Positions 1-64,000 of a DNA stretch of 64,000 nt are shown one piece after another. The stretch is from the NCBI GenBank assembly GCA_903905065.1, contig CAIVEW010000044.1:62001-126000 (forward strand), read 5' to 3'. A program made the translations under genes and the position numbers. Within the stretch, counting starts at the first letter, position 1; the number at the start of each line of letters is the position of its first letter. Source of the stretch: an uncultured Bacteroidota bacterium (GTDB lineage: Bacteria > Bacteroidota > Bacteroidia > Chitinophagales > Chitinophagaceae). The notes under the pieces were generated by a model. That model was not told where the DNA came from and did no database searches. It was given only the letters and a program-made list of their open reading frames with translations.

Positions 1-1402
1 TCGTCAGCGAACCGCCGTTCTCAATTTTACGCGCCGCACCAAAGAATTGCTTTGGCTTCTGCATAGCGTTTGCTTCCACACCACCACTCAGTACCTTGCC
101 ACTTGCGGGAGCTACCGTGTTGTGTGCGCGTGCCAGGCGTGTGATGGAATCGAGCAGGATCACTACGTCGTGGCCCACTTCTACAAGCCTTTTTGCTTTT
201 TGCAACGCTATAGTTGATACTTTCACGTGTTTATCGGCAGGCTCATCGAATGTAGATGCAATAACCTCAGCGCGAACACTGCGCTGCATGTCGGTAACTT
301 CCTCAGGACGTTCATCCACAAGTACGATCATCAGATAGCACTCGGGATGATTCGCGGCTATGGCGTTCGCCACCTCCTTAAGCAGCATCGTCTTACCTGT
401 TTTTGGCTGCGCCACGATGAGGCCGCGCTGGCCCTTACCTATAGGCGTGAACAGGTCCATAATACGAGTACTATAGTTGCCGCCGGTGGTGGTAAGGCTC
501 AGCTTCTCGAATGGGAACAATGGGGTCAGGTAGTCGAATGGCACGCGGTCGCGTATCTCATCCGGCAATCTGCCGTTAATTGTTTCCACTTTCAACAGTG
601 CAAAATACTTCTCACCCTCTTTTGGCGGGCGCACATTGCCTTTTACGGTGTCACCTGTTTTAAGGCCAAATAATTTTATCTGTGATGGGGATACATAAAT
701 ATCATCGGGAGAGCTGAGGTAGTTATAATCGCTGCTGCGCAGGAAGCCATAACCGTCTGGCATCATTTCCAGCACACCCTCGCTTGCTACTACACCTTCA
801 AACTCAAGATTGAAATTGCTTTGTGGTTTTTCCTCGCGGCGGGGAAGCCGGTTATATGCCTGGTGTGGCGCCTGTTGCGGCTTCTCCGGTTCTGCCTCGG
901 CAGGTTGCTGGGGCTGCACTTCCGGAGATTCGGTGGGCATAGTAATGCCATTGCCACCATTGTCATTGTTGCCGCCTTGTGTATTAACCGGCGTAACGGC
1001 CGGTGCCGGTTTTTGTTCTGCAACTGGAGCTTCTCTTTTTACGTCGGTTCTTTTGTGTAATGGCAGTTGGTCCGCTTCTACAGCTTTTGGCATTGCATCC
1101 GGTGCATATTCTTCTTTTGGCTTACGTAGACGGCGCTTTTTATCGCCTGCATCGGCAGTTTCTTCATTTGATGCCGGTTGCGCTGCAGTAACTACGGTTG
1201 CAGGAGCATCAGTCACTTCTTCTTTAGGTTTGCGGCCACGCTTCTTTTTAGGTTCTTCGGCGCTGCCCGCCTGCCGCTCCAGTATTTTATCAACTAATGA
1301 CTTTTTGTCAAGCGAGGCGGTGTTCCGGATCTTTAGTGAATCTGCTACGTCTATGAGCTCAGGAATGAGCATATCATTTAACTGCAAAATGTCGTAAGGC
1401 AT
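1..1402 (-). CDS. rho: Transcription termination factor Rho (C-terminus cut by window edge)
   Basis: Hexameric RNA-dependent ATPase that terminates transcription. About 467 residues are visible, starting at ATG 1402-1400 ([12 protein letters not shown], the usual Bacteroidota N-terminus). Order: N-terminal helical domain (about 1-45); a long low-complexity insertion (about 50-200) rich in Lys, Pro, Glu and Gln; the cold-shock-like RNA-binding domain (about 205-275); then the ATPase core. The Walker A is [12 protein letters not shown] with GKT at 336-338, and the Walker B is [14 protein letters not shown]. Compared with E. coli Rho (Walker A near 180) the N-terminus is about 155 residues longer. 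The insertion carries an AT-hook-like [10 protein letters not shown] and a second basic patch [11 protein letters not shown]. About 100 residues should lie outside the window. Identity is certain; the role of the insertion is not. Confidence 0.97.
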
Positions 1403-1571
1403 GCTTAGGTTTTTTCTGAATAATTATTTTTTAAACACAAATAAGGCTTATCTCGAAATATCTATGATCTTGTTTGATAATGGGAACTTTCAGATAAACT
1501 GCGAAAGGCTGGAACAAATACTGTTTCCTTGCTGCAAGTTTACAACTGTTTTTGTAAATAAAGAAAAAAAG

Positions 1572-2570
1572 TTACTTTTTAAAGTTATAATCCTCAAAAG
1601 ACCGTGCCATGGTCTCTATCGTCTGCGGCAATGGGGTGTAAGCAAACTCCGGAAAAGCACGGAAAAGCTTTTGATTGTCATAATAGGAAAAGGAATTCGC
1701 ATTGGCGGCGGTCTCCTTTGTTATAAGGGTGTTTATGCCCACCTTGCGCAGCAAACCACTTACCTGCCAAGCAAGGGAAATCATTAATGAACTGCTAGCA
1801 AAGCGGGCTTGTTTTTTTCGCAGCGCTTTGGCCATTTCATTCAGTATTTCTTTATAAGAAAAATTGCCGTTACTCACGATGAAACGTTCGGCTTCCATTT
1901 CGGAAATCATGAGCATCACCATTGCTTTTACCACATCATCCGCCGAGACCCAGGAGGTCACTCCCTTCGGGTAAAATGGGAATTCCCGGTAAACCATCTT
2001 CATAAGTCCGGCAGAAAGGTCGTGGCCGGTGGTGGTGCCGAGTATTATTCCGGGGTTTATAATCGCTGCATTGAGCCCTTCACCTATGCCGCGCCAAACT
2101 TCCATTTCTGCAAGGTATTTGCTAAGCGCATATGCCGAATTGTACTTGCTGTCTTCCCACTCTTTTTCTTCATTGATCTCCTTTTCTGAGTCACCCGTTC
2201 TGCCGAGCGCTGCAATAGAGCTGACATGTACCACTTTTTCTATACCCTGCACAATTGCCTGGTTCACTACATTGGCGGTGCTTGCGGGGTTGAAATGCAG
2301 CATAGCATCTCTTTTTCGCGGATCAAAGGAGACGATAGCCGCGCAATGATAAATATGCGTAATGCCTTGCATTGCTTCTTCTACAGCGTAGATATCAAGC
2401 AGGTCGCATTGCATCCACGAGATACCGGGCAGGTGCTTCAATTCATCCGAGGGAGGATGGCTATTATACAGTGCACGCACCTGCTGCCCCTGTGCAGATA
2501 AATGCCGCACAAGATGCTGGCCGAGAAAGCCACTTGCGCCTGTGATAAGAGTTTGAACCGCGATTTGCAT
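1572..2570 (-). CDS. Extended SDR / NAD(P)-dependent epimerase-dehydratase family protein
   Basis: 332-residue Rossmann-fold enzyme. The nucleotide-binding motif TGASGFLGQHL is at residues 10-20, the catalytic Ser lies in HVSS near 117-118, and the YxxxK pair is Tyr147/Lys151 (YALSK). The length and the substrate half resemble the dihydroflavonol-4-reductase-like or 3-beta-HSD-like branch of extended SDRs, but the substrate cannot be read from sequence. It is transcribed in the same direction as rho, 169 bp upstream of it, and may or may not share its transcript. Confidence 0.85.
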   Translation of the reverse strand: MQIAVQTLITGASGFLGQHLVRHLSAQGQQVRALYNSHPPSDELKHLPGISWMQCDLLDIYAVEEAMQGITHIYHCAAIVSFDPRKRDAMLHFNPASTANVVNQAIVQGIEKVVHVSSIAALGRTGDSEKEINEEKEWEDSKYNSAYALSKYLAEMEVWRGIGEGLNAAIINPGIILGTTTGHDLSAGLMKMVYREFPFYPKGVTSWVSADDVVKAMVMLMISEMEAERFIVSNGNFSYKEILNEMAKALRKKQARFASSSLMISLAWQVSGLLRKVGINTLITKETAANANSFSYYDNQKLFRAFPEFAYTPLPQTIETMARSFEDYNFKK

Positions 2571-3064
2571 GATTAAAGGATTTCCCTGATGCCGGGTATT
2601 GTTTTTTCTGTATTAAGATCAGCATCAGTCTCCACCGGAATGTGTTTTCAAATATCACACTTTTTTAAGAACAAAGTTCTGCTTCGCCCCTAAATAGGTT
2701 GACACCCTGGTTAAATACCTGTTTTCTTTACAAGCTTACTGCAGGTGTCTGAGCAGGTTAGCCACGATTTATTGTTGGCAACAAACCCGGTACAATTTCC
2801 ATAACCCGTCTCGTTTTCTTTGGGTTTTTTCTTGGAAACCGGCAACGACACTGTGCCAGGTAGAGCCACGCTGATTTCATGTTTTGCTGTGTAAAGGTAG
2901 GATGGAAAAATTGTATGAAAAAAAGAGGATATCGACAATTTTGCAAGTAAAAGCAGCTTCCGGCAGAAGGGAGGACGAATTTCCATCGCAGGGTCATGAT
3001 CATTAAGATGTGGAAATATTCTCTAAAGCCAAACAAGACAGCTAATTCCCAATTCAGGCCTTAT

Positions 3065-3073
3065 TTATCCACA
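3065..3073 (+). promoter_or_regulatory. Perfect DnaA-box match (TTATCCACA) upstream of dnaN
   Basis: The nonamer TTATCCACA matches the DnaA-box consensus exactly and lies 38 bp before the dnaN -7 element. I see no second perfect box nearby, so it fits a regulatory site better than an origin of replication. A single 9-mer can occur by chance. Confidence 0.4.
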
Positions 3074-3110
3074 ATACCGCACTGAATCTAAAAAAATTCC
3101 TTATTTCAAA

Positions 3111-3118
3111 TATCTTTG
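3111..3118 (+). promoter_or_regulatory. -7 box of the dnaN promoter (TATCTTTG)
   Basis: Exact match to the Bacteroidota TAnnTTTG element, 41 bp before the dnaN ATG. No TTG (-33) is visible at the usual 17-23 bp spacing. The palindrome that follows would be part of the dnaN 5' leader. Confidence 0.6.
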
Positions 3119-3119
3119 T

Positions 3120-3137
3120 CTGCCTGCCGGTAGGCAG
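3120..3137. repeat. Near-perfect GC-rich palindrome CTGCCTGCCGGTAGGCAG
   Basis: 18-bp inverted repeat with one mismatched pair, between the -7 box and start codon of dnaN. A related palindrome (ACCTGTCTGCCGACAGGCAGGT) lies at 59699-59720, so this looks like a dispersed element rather than a dnaN-specific operator. Confidence 0.65.
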
Positions 3138-3159
3138 GATTAAAAAACCAACAATATCG

Positions 3160-4281
3160 ATGCGTTTCATAGTTACATCAACGGCTTTACTCAAAAATCT
3201 GCAGCAGGTAGGCGGCGTCATCAGCGCTAACACCGTATTATCTGTGCTGGAAGATTTTCTTTTTGAATTACGCGGCAACACGCTTACACTTACTGCTACC
3301 GACCTGGAGACAATGATGCGTGTGCAAATGGAAGTGAATGATGCGCAGGGTGACGGGCGCATATGCATACCTTCAAAAATACTCACGGATTATCTTAAAA
3401 ACTTACCGGAGCAGCCTATTACGTTCAACATTAACGAGAGTGACCTCTCGATAGAAATGTCGAGTGATGTAGGTAAGTACAGAATAGGCGGCGAGAAAGC
3501 CGACGATTTTCCGAAGGAGCCAGCTCCAGGGGATACCACTGCGTTTACCATCCCTTCGATATCATTGATAGAGTGTATTAACAAGACTTTGTTTGCGGTG
3601 AGTTCTGATACGCTGCGCCCCGCCATGACCGGTGTGTATTTTGAGTTGGCGACCGATAGCATCACCTTTGTTTCTACTGACGCACATAGGCTCGTGCAGT
3701 TCCGCCGGAATGATGTGAGCTGCCCCGCAAAAGATGGCTTTGTGGTGCCTAAAAAGCCGCTACAGCAGTTGCGCTCAACGCTACCTGCCGATGAATCCAT
3801 ACTGCAAATGGCCTATAATGGCAGCCACCTGTTTGTGACCGGTGAGCGCCTGAGCCTGAGCTGCCGCCTGATAGATGCGCGCTTCCCGGACTATAAAGCG
3901 GTAATACCACTGGACAATCCCTACAAGCTGACTATAAACCGCGGTGACTTTGTAAGTGCGCTGCGCCGCGTGAGCATATTTGCCAACAAAACTACCAATC
4001 AGGTGGTACTGGACATAAACGGTAACGCCCTGCAGATAAGCGCCCAGGATATTGACTTTTCTTACGAGGGCAAGGAGATGCTGAGCTGCCAGTATAGCGG
4101 CGAGGACATGAAAATAGCCTTTAACGCCAAGCTGATGGTGGAAATGGTAGGCAACCTGGATGGCAATGAAATACAGGTAGAATTAAGTACGCCTACACGG
4201 GCCGGTATCTTCCGCTCGATGGATAAGGTGGAAAATGAAGACCTGCTGATGCTGCTGATGCCGCTGATGGTGGGGGTATAA
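3160..4281 (+). CDS. dnaN: DNA polymerase III subunit beta (sliding clamp)
   Basis: 373-residue processivity clamp that forms a ring dimer around DNA and tethers replicative polymerases. The start MRFIVTSTALLKNLQQVGG, three consecutive clamp folds and the C-terminal MPLMV-type end are typical of the family, and the length matches. The gene stands alone here, without dnaA or recF beside it. It has its own -7 box at 3111-3118 and a leader with a palindrome. Its TAA stop is the first codon of a TAACCCC..GGGG module shared with three other genes in this window. Confidence 0.97.
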   Translation: MRFIVTSTALLKNLQQVGGVISANTVLSVLEDFLFELRGNTLTLTATDLETMMRVQMEVNDAQGDGRICIPSKILTDYLKNLPEQPITFNINESDLSIEMSSDVGKYRIGGEKADDFPKEPAPGDTTAFTIPSISLIECINKTLFAVSSDTLRPAMTGVYFELATDSITFVSTDAHRLVQFRRNDVSCPAKDGFVVPKKPLQQLRSTLPADESILQMAYNGSHLFVTGERLSLSCRLIDARFPDYKAVIPLDNPYKLTINRGDFVSALRRVSIFANKTTNQVVLDINGNALQISAQDIDFSYEGKEMLSCQYSGEDMKIAFNAKLMVEMVGNLDGNEIQVELSTPTRAGIFRSMDKVENEDLLMLLMPLMVGV

Positions 4282-57223: not shown

Positions 57224-57266
57224 CACCGCCTGTTTTGAGGTGTCCAACAAAGTGTTTAATTCCAAA

Positions 57267-58739
57267 ATGAACTTTCTCAATAAAATAACGTCCGTTTTTA
57301 ACACATATGCAGAAAGGAATGCTTTTTGCATTCAAAATAAATTTTATTCTTATACCGACCTGCTGGCACTCACTGCTTCCATACAAACAACAATAAACAG
57401 CCGTTGTCCCGGTGAGCAAAATATCGGGATCGTCATCAAGGACGATATAGAGACCTATGCCTCCATCCTTGCTATATTTTTCTCTGGCAAAACATATATC
57501 CCCATACATCCCACATACCCCCCGGAACGCACCGACCAGATCATCGAGCAGGCGGGTATAAAGTTTTTGTTGTCTAAAACGGATGATACCAGCTATTTGG
57601 GCGCTACCTTAATAGCAACCGGCTATTCTTCAGACCAAAAGAACAGCGATATCGCGCTTGCTTCTTTTCCATTCGAAAAAACCAATGCCTATATTCTCTT
57701 CACATCTGGCAGTACCGGTGTGCCTAAAGGTGTGCCGATCACTTACCACAACCTCGATTCTTTTGTGACTGCGTTTAGCGCATTGGCGTATGAGATCGAC
57801 TGCAACGACCGATTCCTGCAGATGTTCGAGCTCACTTTCGACCTATCTGTGATGTCCTACCTTATCCCGTTATGCCATGGAGCTTGCGTGTATACCATAC
57901 CCGATAGCGGCATGAAGTTCACTAATATCTACAATGTGCTCAGCACGCATAAGATCACATTTGCACTGATGGTACCTTCTGTATTGGCAAATCTGCGGCC
58001 TTATTTTGAAGAGATAGACCTACCTGATATGCGCTATTCCCTTTTCTGCGGCGAGGCACTGTACAAAGATGTGGTGGTGGAATGGCTGCGTTGCGTGCCA
58101 AATGCGGTGGTGGAAAATGTGTACGGGCCAACTGAAGCGACCATATTCTGCCTCACCTATAAAATAGAAGATGCAGCAACCATCATTGAATACAATGGTA
58201 TCGTAACTATTGGCACTCCTATGCAAGGGATGGAGGCAATTGTAGTAGATGACGCTCATCAGGAATTACCCGATGGCGAAAAAGGAGAACTTTGTCTGTA
58301 CGGCAACCAGCTAACCCCGGGTTACCTTAACGCTGAAAAGACGAAAGATGCCTTTTTTGAATTGAATGGTAAAAGATATTATCGCACAGGAGATATAACC
58401 TTCAGGAATGAAGATGGTAACTTCATATATTGTGGCCGGGTTGACCACCAGGTGAAAATACAGGGCTTCCGGATAGAGTTGAGCGAGATCGAGTTTCACC
58501 TGAGGGCGATAACCGGCAGTTCTAATGTAGTAGCGCTGGCAGTGAACGCTCCCAATGGAATGATGCAGATAACCGCAGTTTTTGAAGGAGAAGAAAGCGA
58601 CACGGAGCCAACACTCGAAGCATTGAAAACAAAGGTGCCCCCGTATATGATACCGGCTGCTGTCCATTTTGTCGCTACCTTTCCGCTCAACACCAGCGGA
58701 AAGACGGACAGGAAGGCCCTGCAAAAAATGATAGCGTAG
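57267..58739 (+). CDS. Stand-alone adenylation enzyme (amino-acid-activating, DltA-like)
   Basis: 490 residues from ATG 57267. ANL superfamily core: A3 ILFTSGSTGVPKGVPITYHN, A5 NVYGPTEATIFCL, A7 YRTGDITFRNEDG, A8 GRVDHQVKIQGFRIELSEIE, A10 NTSGKTDRKAL. The order and size match D-alanyl carrier protein ligase and free NRPS adenylation domains, which make an acyl- or aminoacyl-AMP and load it on a carrier protein. The carrier is encoded two genes downstream. No condensation or thioesterase domain in view. Substrate unknown. Confidence 0.9.
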   Translation: MNFLNKITSVFNTYAERNAFCIQNKFYSYTDLLALTASIQTTINSRCPGEQNIGIVIKDDIETYASILAIFFSGKTYIPIHPTYPPERTDQIIEQAGIKFLLSKTDDTSYLGATLIATGYSSDQKNSDIALASFPFEKTNAYILFTSGSTGVPKGVPITYHNLDSFVTAFSALAYEIDCNDRFLQMFELTFDLSVMSYLIPLCHGACVYTIPDSGMKFTNIYNVLSTHKITFALMVPSVLANLRPYFEEIDLPDMRYSLFCGEALYKDVVVEWLRCVPNAVVENVYGPTEATIFCLTYKIEDAATIIEYNGIVTIGTPMQGMEAIVVDDAHQELPDGEKGELCLYGNQLTPGYLNAEKTKDAFFELNGKRYYRTGDITFRNEDGNFIYCGRVDHQVKIQGFRIELSEIEFHLRAITGSSNVVALAVNAPNGMMQITAVFEGEESDTEPTLEALKTKVPPYMIPAAVHFVATFPLNTSGKTDRKALQKMIA

Positions 58740-58740
58740 C

Positions 58741-59400
58741 ATGGAAACGATCATCAGGAAAGCCACAGAAGCAGATAAAGACTTTTTGATCACCTCCATC
58801 ATAGAGGCGGAGAAAAGCGGAGGAAACGTTATCAGCTATTGTGCCATTTTCGACATTACCGAGGATGAATTACGTTCCGCGTTGCGCAACATACTGGACG
58901 AGGACATGATAGGCCAGGAATTAAATATTTCCGGCTTCCTGGTGGCCGAGGTTGATGGGGAGCGTGCCGCGGCACTCAACACATGGGTAGAGAATGAGGG
59001 TGGCATGAGCAGCACCATGATAAAAAGCAATCTGCTGATGTATTTTATCGACCGGCAAAAGATACTTAATGCCGGCCCGGCGATGGCCCTGATGAACGAG
59101 ATAAACATACACCGCGACGACAATGCGCTGCAAATTGAATGCGTGTATACCGCACCCAAATACCGTGGTCTCGGACTAAGCAGTAAGTTGATCGGTGAGC
59201 ATATCCGGAGGAAACAGGAAGCAGCTATACAATTCGATAAGGTGCAGGTAATATTGCTGAAGAACAATGAGGCTGCTCAAAAAGCCTACAGCAAGGCGGG
59301 GTTTAGCCTGGTGTCCGAAAAAAGGTGCGCTGATCCGGCAATATTGAAGATGTTGCCTTGCGACACGAAAATTTTAATGGAAAAGGAAATAAAAAAATAG
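58741..59400 (+). CDS. GNAT family acyltransferase, 219 aa (adenylation operon)
   Basis: Starts one base after the adenylation stop. GNAT landmarks: IIRKATEADKDFLITSIIEA, GFLVAEVDGERAAALNTW, IECVYTAPKYRGLGLSSKLI (acetyl-CoA loop RGLGLS) and NNEAAQKAYSKAGFSLVSEK. The tight spacing implies it uses or transfers the carrier-bound acyl group, or acylates the activated substrate. A role in transferring the group to an acceptor amine is inferred. Confidence 0.87.
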   Translation: METIIRKATEADKDFLITSIIEAEKSGGNVISYCAIFDITEDELRSALRNILDEDMIGQELNISGFLVAEVDGERAAALNTWVENEGGMSSTMIKSNLLMYFIDRQKILNAGPAMALMNEINIHRDDNALQIECVYTAPKYRGLGLSSKLIGEHIRRKQEAAIQFDKVQVILLKNNEAAQKAYSKAGFSLVSEKRCADPAILKMLPCDTKILMEKEIKK

Positions 59401-59406
59401 CAAATC

Positions 59407-59652
59407 ATGGAAGATCAGGAAATACTCTCGCAATTGAATACGATTATTGGCGGCGTGCTGCGTAAAAAGGACCTGGTGCTCACACCGGAAACTACCGCCA
59501 AAGATGTGCCCGGCTGGGACTCGCTCACCCACATGATCATCATTGACAGTATTGAAAAACACTTCAAGGTGCGGTTCAAGCTGAACGAGATCATGAATTT
59601 TAAGAATGTAGGAGATACGGTTACCTGTATCAAAGGCAAGGAGGTGAAATAA
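59407..59652 (+). CDS. Acyl/peptidyl carrier protein (adenylation operon)
   Basis: 81 residues, four-helix carrier fold. Phosphopantetheine Ser39 in PGWDSLTHMIIIDSIEKHF. Acidic and typical of D-alanyl or aminoacyl carrier proteins rather than fatty-acid ACP, which has DSLDTVEL. Last gene of the operon, 6 bp after the GNAT stop. Expected substrate of the adenylation enzyme; must be modified by a phosphopantetheinyl transferase encoded elsewhere. Confidence 0.9.
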   Translation: MEDQEILSQLNTIIGGVLRKKDLVLTPETTAKDVPGWDSLTHMIIIDSIEKHFKVRFKLNEIMNFKNVGDTVTCIKGKEVK

Positions 59653-59657
59653 ACGTT

Positions 59658-59760
59658 GAAATTCGAAAAAAAATTCCGAAGAGTAGTTTCCCTTTTGGAC
59701 CTGTCTGCCGACAGGCAGGTTTGGAATTTCACCTTTGGAAGTTGGAATTCTACTTTTGGG
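59658..59760. repeat. AAATTCC/GGAATTT element with internal palindrome
   Basis: Left part AAATTCG and AAATTCC, centre palindrome ACCTGTCTGCCGACAGGCAGGT (59699-59720), right part GGAATTTC, GGAATTC. The element ends inside the last codons of the YbhB-like gene. It shares its centre with the palindrome before dnaN and its arms with the repeat at 4372-4415. Confidence 0.55.
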
Positions 59761-60250
59761 ATTTCTTATACAACCCTATTAGCTCACCCTCATCCAGAAT
59801 ATGGCCCTGCATTCGCTTTTCCAGCGATTCTTTATCATTGTTCTGGTCCAGCTCCAGCATCTCATCAAGTGCATATACCTTGAAATGGTAATGATGTGTT
59901 CCCGATGGAGGGCACATGCCCTTGTAGCCAACCTGCTTTGCGCTGTTCAGTCCCTCATTCGCGTTTTTAAACCCTTCTTTCAGGTAACCTTTTACATCTA
60001 TATTCCATACTACCCAATGCGTAAACCCGCCCTTCATTGGCGCATCCGGATCATGGACGATCAGCGCAAGGCTTTTAGCCGCCGAAGGTATGTTGCTGAT
60101 GTTAAGCGGCGGGCTTACTTCTGTGCCCTCACATGAATACTTTGAGGGTATCATTCCACCATCTTTAAAACTAGAACTGGTCACCACCAGCTGTGCCCGC
60201 GATGTGCCAACCATAAAAATCAATGCAAGAGAAGAAATAAAGTACCGCAT
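59750..60250 (-). CDS. YbhB/YbcL family protein (Raf kinase inhibitor-like)
   Basis: 166 residues from ATG 60250. Signal peptide MRYFISSLALIFMVGTSRA. PEBP fold: FKDGGMIPSKYSCEGTEVSP, LALIVHDPDAPMKGGFTHWVVW (conserved DPDAP and HWVVW), GYKGMCPPSGTHHYHFKVYA. Anion/phosphate-binding periplasmic protein of uncertain role. The frame is open upstream to 60322, but this Met gives a signal peptide. Confidence 0.9.
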   Translation of the reverse strand: MRYFISSLALIFMVGTSRAQLVVTSSSFKDGGMIPSKYSCEGTEVSPPLNISNIPSAAKSLALIVHDPDAPMKGGFTHWVVWNIDVKGYLKEGFKNANEGLNSAKQVGYKGMCPPSGTHHYHFKVYALDEMLELDQNNDKESLEKRMQGHILDEGELIGLYKKSQK

Positions 60251-60716
60251 ATATTTTTCAGAGATCGGTAATAACTTCATACCAACGGAGCACCGAAACA
60301 TCTGGGCATCCACCCGTCGCACCTACTAAAACATTATACTGGTGCCCGACCATCCGAGTTCTCCCGGGCGGGCACTTCTGCGTCTTTAGCGAAAGACTTT
60401 TCACGCCATGCCGAGCGACTATGGATTTTTTTCCCCAATTTATTATGCATATACAAAAGAAATAAAACAAGCCTTTACCTGGAATGTTTTTTTAAAAAAG
60501 CTCCGCTTCGTTTACAAAACCAACTGGGGCGGCCATTTCCACCGCAAAAAATTGCATCTCAAAATGTTATCGCTGACAGCAATTGCCATTTTATAGGCTG
60601 GCATGATTTTTTACAATTTTTTTTTCTTACGCAAAAAATTTATTGAGCTACCCCCTGCAATGAGAAAAATTTTCAATGCAAAATGGGAACCTTTTTACAA
60701 CCATAAAAACTAAATT
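60251..60716. other. Intergenic region with a GC-rich structured island
   Basis: 466 bp between divergent genes, mostly AT-rich, but 60340-60420 is GC-rich. It holds two hairpins: GTGCCCG (60342-60348)/CGGGCAC (60369-60375), and GTCTTT (60382-60387)/AAAGAC (60392-60397) with loop AGCG. On the minus strand they would form the leader of the YbhB-like gene. I recognise no known riboswitch. No promoter for the poly-HAMP gene stands out. Confidence 0.45.
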
Positions 60717-63700
60717 ATGGATACAGAACTCACACTTCCATCCACCTCGGTAAACGGGGACAAAGCAGCGATCGCTGATGACACCATTGCAATCATGCCC
60801 CCCGCGAAAGCGCCCAAAAAACCCAAACGACAACCCAAACCTTCCGCATACTACGAATCCATGTCCGAGATGCACCCCGACGAGGTGCTGAACAGAGAGT
60901 TGCTGCGGATATTGATCGAAGTAAGAAACGGCAACTTCGACCTGCGCATGCCCATTGACCAGGTAGGCATCAGCGGTAAGATATGTGATACACTTAACGA
61001 GATCATCTTCATGAACCAGAAGATGACCCATGAGTTCACCCGCGCCAGTAATACCATAGGCAAGCAGGGAAAACTGACACACCGCATAGAGGTGCCGTTC
61101 GCAAAAGGTTCGTGGAGCACCGGCGTCGACTCCCTAAACACGCTGATCTCCGACCTTGTGCATCCCACCATTGAGATAGCAGGCGTTATCAGCTCTGTGG
61201 CGAAAGGAAACCTGTCACAGCAAATGCCGCTGCAGATTGGCGATCACGTGCTGCAAGGTGAGTTCGCCCGTATCGCTAAAGAAGTGAACGACATGGTGAA
61301 GCAGCTCAACCTGTTCTCGATGGAGGTGACCCGTGTGGCGCTGGAAGTGGGTACCGAGGGTAAGCTGGGTGGTCAGGCAACGGTAAAGGGTGTAGGTGGT
61401 GTATGGAAAGACCTTACCGACTCGGTGAACCAGATGGCCAGCAACCTCACAGCACAGGTGCGTAACATCGCCGAGGTAACAACATCGGTGGCGAAGGGAG
61501 ACCTCTCGCGCAAGATAACAGTGGATGTAAAGGGAGAAATACTGGAGCTGAAGAACACGATCAATACAATGGTGGACCAGCTCAACTCCTTCTCGTCCGA
61601 AGTAACGCGTGTGGCGCTGGAAGTGGGAACAGAAGGTAAGTTGGGCGGACAAGCCCAGGTGCGTGGCATCGGCGGTACATGGAAAGACCTCACAGACTCG
61701 GTTAACCAGATGGCATCTAACCTTACGGGCCAGGTGCGTAACATTGCCGAGGTAACGATAGCCGTAGCGAGGGGTGACCTTTCCAAAAAGATTACGGTGG
61801 ACGTAAAGGGAGAAATATCAGAGCTGAAATATACGATCAATACCATGGTGGACCAGCTCAATTCGTTCTCGGCGGAAGTAACGCGTGTAGCGAGGGAAGT
61901 GGGGTCTGAGGGTAAACTTGGAGGGCAGGCAGAAGTAAAGGGTGTGGCAGGTGTATGGAAAGATCTTACCGACTCTGTGAACCAGATGGGTAGTAACCTT
62001 ACGGCGCAGGTACGTAACATCGCACAGGTAACAACAGCCGTGGCAAAGGGCGACCTTTCGCGCAAGATCACGGTGGACGTAAGGGGAGAAATATTAGAGC
62101 TAAAGGACACGATCAATACCATGGTGGACCAGCTCAACTCGTTCGGATCGGAAGTGACGCGTGTGGCGCGTGAGGTGGGCTCTGAGGGTAAGCTGGGCGG
62201 ACAGGCAACGGTGGAAGGAGTAGGCGGTGTATGGAAAGACCTTACGGACTCTGTGAACCAGATGGCTGGTAACCTTACGGGCCAGGTGCGCAACATTGCC
62301 GAGGTAACAACGGCGGTGGCAAACGGTGACCTCTCCAAAAAGATCACCGTGGACGTGCAGGGCGAAATTCTTGAGTTGAAAAAGACGATCAATAACATGG
62401 TGGACCAGCTTAACTCTTTTGGATCAGAAGTAACGCGTGTTGCGCGTGAAGTGGGTTCGGAAGGCAAGCTGGGTGTGCAGGCAACGGTGAAGGGTGTGGG
62501 CGGTGTATGGAAAGACCTTACCTACTCTGTGAACCAGATGGCCAGTAACCTCACAGCACAGGTGCGTAACATCGCCGAGGTAACAACGGCGGTGGCAAAC
62601 GGTGACCTCTCCAAGAAGATCACCGTGGATGTGGAAGGCGAAATACTGGAGCTGAAGAACACGATCAATACGATGGTGGATCAGCTCAACTCTTTCGCAT
62701 CAGAAGTAACACGTGTGGCGCTTGAAGTGGGTACAGAAGGTAAACTGGGCGGCCAGGCAAAGGTGAAAGGTGTAGGTGGTGTATGGAAAGGCCTTACAGA
62801 CTCTGTGAACCAGATGGGTAGTAACCTTACGGCACAGGTACGTAACATCGCCGAGGTAACAACGGCGGTAGCTTACGGTGACCTCTCTAAGAAAATTACG
62901 GTGAATGTGCAAGGAGAGATCCTCGACCTGAAGAATACGATCAATACCATGGTGGACCAGCTCAACTCCTTCGCATCGGAAGTGACGCGTGTGGCCCTTG
63001 AGGTGGGCACGGAAGGTAAGCTTGGCGGACAGGCTAAAGTGCAAGGTGTGGGAGGTACATGGAAAGACCTTACCGACTCTGTGAACCAGATGGGTAGTAA
63101 CCTTACGGCGCAGGTGCGTAACATCGCCGAGGTGACGACAGCGGTTGCAAAAGGTGACCTTTCCCGCAAGATCACGGTGGACGTAAAGGGAGAAATTCTC
63201 GAGCTGAAGAACACGATCAACACGATGGTGGACCAGCTCAACTCTTTCGGATCGGAAGTAACCCGTGTTGCCCGCGAGGTGGGTTCCGAAGGTAAGCTGG
63301 GCGGCCAGGCCGACGTGGCCGGTGTGGGTGGTACCTGGAAAGACCTTACCGACTCTGTGAATGTAATGGCCGGCAACCTTACCAGCCAGGTCCGCAACAT
63401 TGCGGAAGTAACGACAGCGGTGGCGAACGGTGACCTTTCCCGCAAAATTGAAGTGGACGTGAAGGGAGAGATCCTGGAGCTGAAAAATACGATCAATACG
63501 ATGGTGGAACAGCTTCGCGCGTTCGCATCGGAAGTAACGCGTGTTGCGCGTGAGGTGGGTACAGAAGGTAAACTGGGTGGCCAGGCGCACGTGCCGGGTG
63601 TGGCAGGTACATGGAAAGACCTTACCGACTCCGTGAACCAGATGGCCGGTAACCTTACCGACCAGGTGCGTAACATCGCGAATGTGGCGATAGCCGTGGC

Positions 63701-64000
63701 GAACGGAGACATGTCCCGCAAGATCACGGTGGACGTACGCGGCGAGATATTGCAACTCAAAGAAACACTGAACACCATGGTGGACCAGCTCCGCGCCTTC
63801 GCTTCGGAAGTGACGCGTGTGGCCCGTGAGGTGGGTACCGATGGTAAACTCGGCGGACAGGCATTCGTGCCGGGTGTGGCAGGTACGTGGAAGGACCTTA
63901 CCGACTCTGTGAACCAGATGACGGGTAACCTCACCAGCCAGGTGCGTAACATTGCCGAGGTGACAAAAGCGGTAGCGAGCGGTGACCTCTCTAAAAAAGT
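60717..64000 (+). CDS. Giant soluble poly-HAMP signalling protein (3' end beyond window)
   Basis: 1094 residues visible, start ATG 60717 ([16 protein letters not shown]). A basic Pro/Lys linker ([15 protein letters not shown]) precedes two irregular HAMP-like units (about 58-200). From residue 203 a 92-residue unit repeats at an exact 276-bp period: [19 protein letters not shown], then [60 protein letters not shown]. Nine full copies and most of a tenth are present. There is no membrane helix or signal peptide. This is the architecture of Nik1/group III hybrid histidine kinases, whose HAMP arrays sense osmotic or cell-wall stress. Kinase and receiver domains would lie beyond the edge. Confidence 0.9.
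61323..64000 (+). repeat. 276-bp in-frame tandem repeat (HAMP array)
   Basis: Copies start at 61323, 61599, 61875, 62151, 62427, 62703, 62979, 63255, 63531 and 63807, all in frame. They are nearly identical in protein but vary at synonymous sites, so the array is old and under selection. Copies four and five share longer identical stretches, suggesting local gene conversion. Copy five carries LGVQ and TYSV where others have LGGQ and TDSV. Confidence 0.95.

Follow-up and report, generated by a model that had tools for sequence, protein, structure and literature searches.

Our analysis shows that the gene at the far end of the window (here the whole stretch of DNA that was analysed, 64,000 bp, G000:C44:62001-126000 of a draft genome in 113 contigs) encodes an array of 13 tandem HAMP-containing repeat units, which are maintained and individually constrained within the genus. 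The protein is likely a bacterial poly-HAMP hybrid histidine kinase located in the cytosol (group III-like, resembling AskB and OsaA), in which the rod of HAMP domains would act as input and relay, hold the kinase in one state and let phosphate pass to the kinase encoded downstream. The array is longer than its fungal counterparts and ordinary for its bacterial family.

The open frame begins at window position 60717 on the + strand, is still open at the window end (64000) and extends 3.4 kb beyond this edge. Reading on in the same contig yields a complete frame of 2,232 amino acids with its stop side at G000:C44:129415 (L011:11416). The domain order is a 54-residue tail, a first HAMP, 13 repeat units, GAF, HisKA, HATPase and three receivers:

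60717..64000, + strand: 5' part of the poly-HAMP hybrid histidine kinase gene, residues 1-1094 of 2,232 (open frame, domains, motifs)
60717..60878, + strand: N-terminal tail, variable and of low complexity, residues 1-54 (19-37% identity to four orthologs)
60879..61031, + strand: first, diverged HAMP, residues 55-105 (helix-connector-helix where the model is confident; aligned to PDB 9trk)
61032..61322, + strand: 97-residue repeat unit 1, residues 106-202 (24-32% identity to the other units)
61323..64000, + strand: repeat units 2-11 in 276-bp steps, unit 11 cut by the window end (repeat analysis and unit profile)
Beyond the window end, + strand: rest of unit 11 and units 12-13 (unit profile)
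Beyond the window, + strand: GAF, residues 1329-1468 (Pfam)
Beyond the window, + strand: HisKA, residues 1540-1607, with the presumed phospho-acceptor His1549 (Pfam)
Beyond the window, + strand: HATPase, residues 1655-1777 (Pfam)
Beyond the window, + strand: three receivers, the last at residues 2114-2225 (Pfam)
Beyond the window, L011:11609-12913: next gene, a 434-aa receiver-HisKA-HATPase kinase, probable partner (Pfam and locus comparison)

An earlier note, made from the window alone, had proposed a soluble poly-HAMP hybrid histidine kinase of Nik1-like layout and had looked to the 3' end of the gene for signalling domains. This is borne out by the GAF, HisKA, HATPase and three receiver domains found there. 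A motif search recovered the H, N, G1, F and G2 boxes as well as the receiver Asp and Lys motifs, with His1549 as the presumed phospho-acceptor. The claim that the protein has no membrane segment was likewise confirmed, the maximum 19-residue Kyte-Doolittle mean being 1.48 (inside the GAF domain) and 1.30 within residues 1-1310. Twelve of the 15 HAMP matches in the whole genome fall in this one gene.

Tandem Repeats Finder reported a period of 276 with 9.8 copies and 0% indels at 61292-63991, and a profile built from the protein's own units recognised 13 units, the first with 97 residues (106-202) and the other twelve with 92 each (203-1306). Units 1-10 lie entirely inside the window, while unit 11 is truncated at its end. 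The previously noted minimum of ten 92-residue units at an exact 276-bp period thus holds throughout the array except for the longer unit 1. Pfam places 12 HAMP (PF00672) and 13 HAMP_2 (PF18947) stretches at overlapping positions; since they coincide, they mark 13 HAMP sites, one per unit. No separate Pfam stretch was seen for a second, divergent HAMP in each unit, nor did the first HAMP (residues 55-105) give a Pfam match. The AlphaFold model, in its low-confidence part, shows two connectors per 92 residues, and together with the pair assignment described for CaNik1 (PMC3848655) this suggests that each unit is a HAMP pair. The total would then be about 27 HAMP domains, i.e. one plus 26 in 13 pairs. 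A helix-turn-helix reading of the units was rejected, given that no single stretch of the Pfam matches to SpoIIID and RHH_6 reaches significance by itself. For SpoIIID (residues 1058-1085 and similar), the score adds up to 63.6 bits across the protein, so the match looks like many repeats summed. AskA and AskB are reported to have helix-turn-helix domains, and these may, by analogy, reflect the same effect.

The array is a tandem repeat in a 113-contig draft, and a copy number produced by slippage or assembly would have to be considered on these grounds. However, the longest exact match at whole-unit lags is 47 bp, and no 55-mer was found twice in gene bases 601-4000. Among 35 genomes of the genus (own included), HAMP_2 matches occur in seven. 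The five complete arrays (own, G016, G025, G027 and G006) have 13 units each, whereas the other two contigs end inside the gene, in G005 after 11 units and a partial twelfth listed place, in G017 after six. An eighth carrier, G030, retains only the C-terminal end of the gene at a contig border. The gene is therefore patchy in the genus, and its unit number is constant wherever it can be counted. Core units of the protein also differ strongly from one another, with a median pS of 0.54 and a median pN of 0.104; as pS expected at synonymous saturation under the array's codon use is 0.74, these distances are large and not saturated. Because no 55-mer is repeated and each of four related species has 13 units, we regard miscounting in the array as very unlikely, reject an assembly error and give an artefactual copy number practically no credence. 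The earlier view that the length has long been maintained is corroborated by the same observations and by the high synonymous divergence.

Individual units are conserved according to their place. The closest DNA match of every own unit is the same-position unit in the orthologs L013-L016 (52/52), and the first 11 units of L018, whose contig ends there, behave likewise; the margin between best and second-best unit is often small, with a minimum of one percentage point. Same-position units of own and the four orthologs show pS of 0.37-0.69 (synonymous divergence near 0.5) and pN of 0-0.056, with summed omega values of 0.004, 0.019, 0.023 and 0.006. In units 2-11 only 46 of 3,680 residues differ from the four orthologs. 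The own protein departs from the unit consensus in 396 ortholog-compared cells, of which 359 hold the same residue in the ortholog, 23 the consensus residue and 14 another one. Units 2-13 are the most conserved region of more than 22 codons in all four comparisons: pN is 0.003-0.023 in core units 2-11 and 0.017-0.048 in unit 1 and the first HAMP; the kinase has 0.018-0.062 and the receivers have 0.035-0.098 (REC3 in three orthologs). Identity to the four orthologs is 93-100% in the HAMP array against 19-37% in the tail. The pS is lower in the array (0.46-0.53) than in the kinase (0.59-0.74), in part because of the array's codon use. We also considered whether unit-specific residues are concentrated in the connectors; by eye, 7 of 16 such columns lie there, where about 5 are expected, and we therefore make no claim of connector enrichment.

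Copy number in the wider family was assessed in a non-random sample of 102 loci, comprising 22 loci from a search among kin and the best 80 among the matches listed for the C-terminal 910 residues. Complete arrays were found in 61; another 21 run off the end of their stretch, and 20 gave no match to a unit (in some because the contig stops before it). Of the complete arrays, L049, L061 and L098 look frame-broken and were counted as they stand. Unit number in these 61 sampled arrays (own included) ranges from 4 to 16, distributed as 4 (1 array), 5 (2), 7 (14), 8 (2), 9 (1), 10 (3), 11 (5), 12 (13), 13 (11), 14 (4), 15 (4) and 16 (1). At least 12 units are present in 33 of the sampled complete arrays and 14 to 16 in nine. 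The longest array (L087, 16 units) belongs to Hyalangium, a myxobacterial relative, and has a receiver-kinase as next gene. With this range and nine arrays above 13, a count of 13 units is not exceptional in bacteria. Twice the fungal number is usual among the bacterial relatives sampled, and the earlier impression of an unusual copy number is not borne out. A comparison among relatives, as had been proposed, thus gives a constant 13 in the genus where arrays are complete and a variable 4-16 in the wider sample. A 2010 survey reportedly gave a maximum HAMP number per protein.

Amino acid comparison with 11 other species reveals where the arrays differ. In seven of them (L034, L036, L038, L039, L041, L044, L054), the six C-terminal units line up in order, counted from that end; L036 is the cultured Chitinophaga filiformis DSM 527, with 11 units. 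In L043 and L047 they are not all matched in order, and in the cyanobacterium L053 and the myxobacterium L067 only the last two are matched uniquely. Own units 6-7 are matched in order also in L034, L036 and L038. Own units 2-5 show no consistent order outside the genus, and unit 1 of L034, L036, L038 and L054, out of register by a few residues, was left out of the comparison. Given the ordered C-terminal end and the unordered units 2-5, whole units seem to have been gained, lost or homogenised in the middle of the array. For MXAN_6735, two Myxococcus species have been described as differing in poly-HAMP length (PMC4603909). Among the matches listed, the closest named ones of the C-terminal part include Ginsengibacter, Chitinophaga and Flavisolibacter (71-79% identity in the best segment). 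All three belong to the Chitinophagaceae.

Such variation raises the question of whether the array is a passive spacer of interchangeable units that sets the distance between an anchored N-terminal end and the kinase. Unit numbers of 4-16 between relatives and the lack of consistent one-to-one counterparts of units 2-5 outside the genus would fit this, but the positional matches in the genus, the 359 departures common to the orthologs at the same place and the lowest pN lying in units 2-13 all speak against interchangeability, and we consider a mere spacer unlikely. A more elaborate, equally improbable scenario would be a coded rod in which each unit bears its own residue signature at its own place. 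Different units might then serve as docking sites for different partners or ligands, or adjust the switch stepwise, the last six or so forming a fixed transmission segment and those further in being added or lost whole as an adjustable integrator. Positional constancy and the pattern of fixed end and variable middle were not met in the literature cited here, and we claim no priority.

Structural evidence comes from PDB 9trk (histidine kinase-Gcn4), which aligns gap-free to residues 55-337 (283 positions, E about 1e-116); 9trj, also a poly-HAMP kinase-Gcn4 fusion, matches the protein as well. Both represent a relative's protein of which only the N-terminal part is solved, and a search of the available literature found no paper describing them. 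The AlphaFold model is a monomer built from 31 sequences, all of whose aligned N-terminal stretches match HAMP and HAMP_2. Its helices of 30-34 residues are split by connectors of 13-18 residues. The structure prediction suggested earlier thus reproduces the helix-connector pattern, but its mean pLDDT is 60.6: only about the first 60 residues are good, confidence is fair up to residue 100 or thereabouts, and most residues from 153 on are below 50. The top three PDB fold matches of the model are Aer2 poly-HAMP structures (probability 0.99-1.00, E 0.025-0.053, TM 0.24-0.26 by query length); 9trk is absent among its fold matches. If straight, the rod would measure about 60 nm, at about 2.3 nm per HAMP (half of a 31-residue helix for each of 27 HAMPs).

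A further alternative holds that the N-terminal part binds DNA or the nucleoid, as in vitro for AskB and, with a separate N-terminal domain, FrzCD. AskB is reported to shift PmrpC DNA in vitro (PMC7643160), FrzCD is described as carrying a DNA-binding domain before two HAMPs (PMC12077210), the own tail contains a short Lys/Arg cluster, and 12 of 58 scored tails have a net charge of +5 or more (11 if L104, whose start is doubtful, is left out). On the other hand, the own tail has a net charge of -2 and those of the four orthologs -2 to +1, many relatives' tails are short and acidic, and the SpoIIID match lacks any individually significant stretch. As the tails are not generally basic, nucleoid anchoring is kept as a weak rival only, and we rate it as quite improbable.

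We therefore return to the cytosolic relay kinase as the preferred reading. The protein would form a parallel dimer whose HAMP domains build a helical rod, and successive HAMPs would switch between two packings and so keep the kinase in one state. A change of state would be relayed along the rod, via the GAF domain and coil, to HisKA. His1549 would hand its phosphate to the three receivers, which would pass it to the receiver of the kinase encoded downstream. HAMPs are described as having two conformers with opposite output (PMC3570549). According to one report on fungal kinases, DhNik1 is constitutively active after loss of four of five repeats, CaNik1 without any HAMP inhibits yeast growth unless the phospho-His is mutated, and loss of up to two pairs in CaNik1 only lowers fungicide sensitivity (PMC3848655). 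From these examples we infer that the array holds this kinase in a single state and transmits a change. Since unit number varies from 4 to 16 in the family, no fixed length appears to be needed for this general function. The stimulus, by analogy only, may be osmotic or chemical stress.

The next gene, encoding a receiver-kinase, is the probable partner, as gene order and the known systems suggest. The gap between both genes is 192 bp here and 6-15 bp in three genus orthologs. By tblastn, matches to the partner lie within 4 kb downstream in 64 of 78 loci, some of them several genes away and one on the other strand. A receiver gene follows within 400 bp in 57 of the 78, with the kinase part recognised in 46; the remaining 21 have no receiver gene within this distance. 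In Bacteroidota (assigned by record titles and kinship of matches) the receiver-kinase is the next gene in 23 of 24 loci, and the 24th (L046) has it at +434. In L056, L069 and L094, the three tested among the 21 loci without a receiver gene, the next gene encodes a CheR methyltransferase (Pfam), and L052 and L064 look similar by eye; this hints at a methylation-type adaptation in some members.

Several neighbouring features deserve mention in their own right. Between kinase and partner genes, beyond the window end, lies a strongly folding double stem-loop (G000:C44:129455-129552, L011:11456-11553; z -4.7). Parts of it recur at seven other places in the genome; the nine matches include the element itself, and one of the places is matched on both strands. 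As the gap is only 6-15 bp in three genus orthologs, the operon may here have received a REP-type insertion. An IS200-like Y1 transposase gene (L011:13272-13808) comes just after the partner gene. On the - strand, window 59750-60322 is occupied by a gene of the phosphatidylethanolamine-binding protein family (Pfam PF01161), divergent to the kinase gene. Window 57240-59652 holds in a row a 499-aa adenylation-type enzyme, a GNAT acetyltransferase (Pfam) and an 81-aa carrier-like protein, the first and last presumptively named by reading their sequences; the row suggests a small biosynthetic pathway.

The family bears on how many chained HAMPs carry a signal, as it offers natural arrays of 4-16 units; in Bacteroidota their C-terminal end is conserved and their middle is less ordered. 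Together with the solved start of a relative's array and the conserved receiver-kinase neighbour, this makes unit number testable against output.

Among known systems, the fungal group III kinases (CaNik1, TcsC, Bos1) share the 92-residue pairs and the HisKA-HATPase-receiver order. The fungal Nik1 layout has five to six repeats and a single receiver and is not known to include a GAF domain, whereas the present protein has 13 units, a GAF domain and three receivers. For CaNik1, 92-residue HAMP pairs, five to six repeats and HisKA-HATPase-receiver are described (PMC3848655). Aer2 of Pseudomonas aeruginosa (3LNR), source of the best fold matches to the array model, is a soluble receptor with concatenated HAMPs, reported to have a heme PAS between a set of three HAMPs and a set of two, followed by a chemoreceptor output (PMC3570549). 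The NCBIfam model for Vibrio Aer2 matches 13 stretches of our protein, far below its cut-off.

The closest parallels are bacterial. AskB (MXAN_6735) and AskA (MXAN_0712) of Myxococcus xanthus and Amb07 of Sorangium are described as poly-HAMP hybrid kinases likened to group III, with 11 (AskB), 9 (Amb07) and 6 (AskA) copies of a repeat-linked motif (PMC7643160). The same report places askC, encoding a hybrid kinase with a receiver, immediately downstream of askB; AskB and AskC bind each other, and a two-hybrid test showed interaction of Rec3 of AskA with the AskC receiver (PMC7643160). Going by this description, the present protein shares the layout and, in the AskB-AskC order, the receiver-first downstream gene, whereas our protein is not known to bind DNA or to respond to ambruticin. 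OsaA (SCO5748) of Streptomyces coelicolor is reported with 1,829 aa, no transmembrane helix and more than 10 HAMPs, its partner regulator OsaB (SCO5749) bearing the next gene number (PMC9739842). As described, OsaB has a coiled-coil effector part, in contrast to the full kinase module of the partner here. The comparison suggests that AskB-AskC and OsaA-OsaB may be local versions of one widespread two-gene module. Long bacterial arrays of more than 10 HAMPs are thus already in print (PMC7643160, PMC9739842) and such hybrid kinases already known; with its run of 92-residue HAMP units, no membrane segment, HisKA, HATPase and receiver motifs and a receiver-first gene downstream, the protein joins the AskA/AskB/OsaA-like kind.
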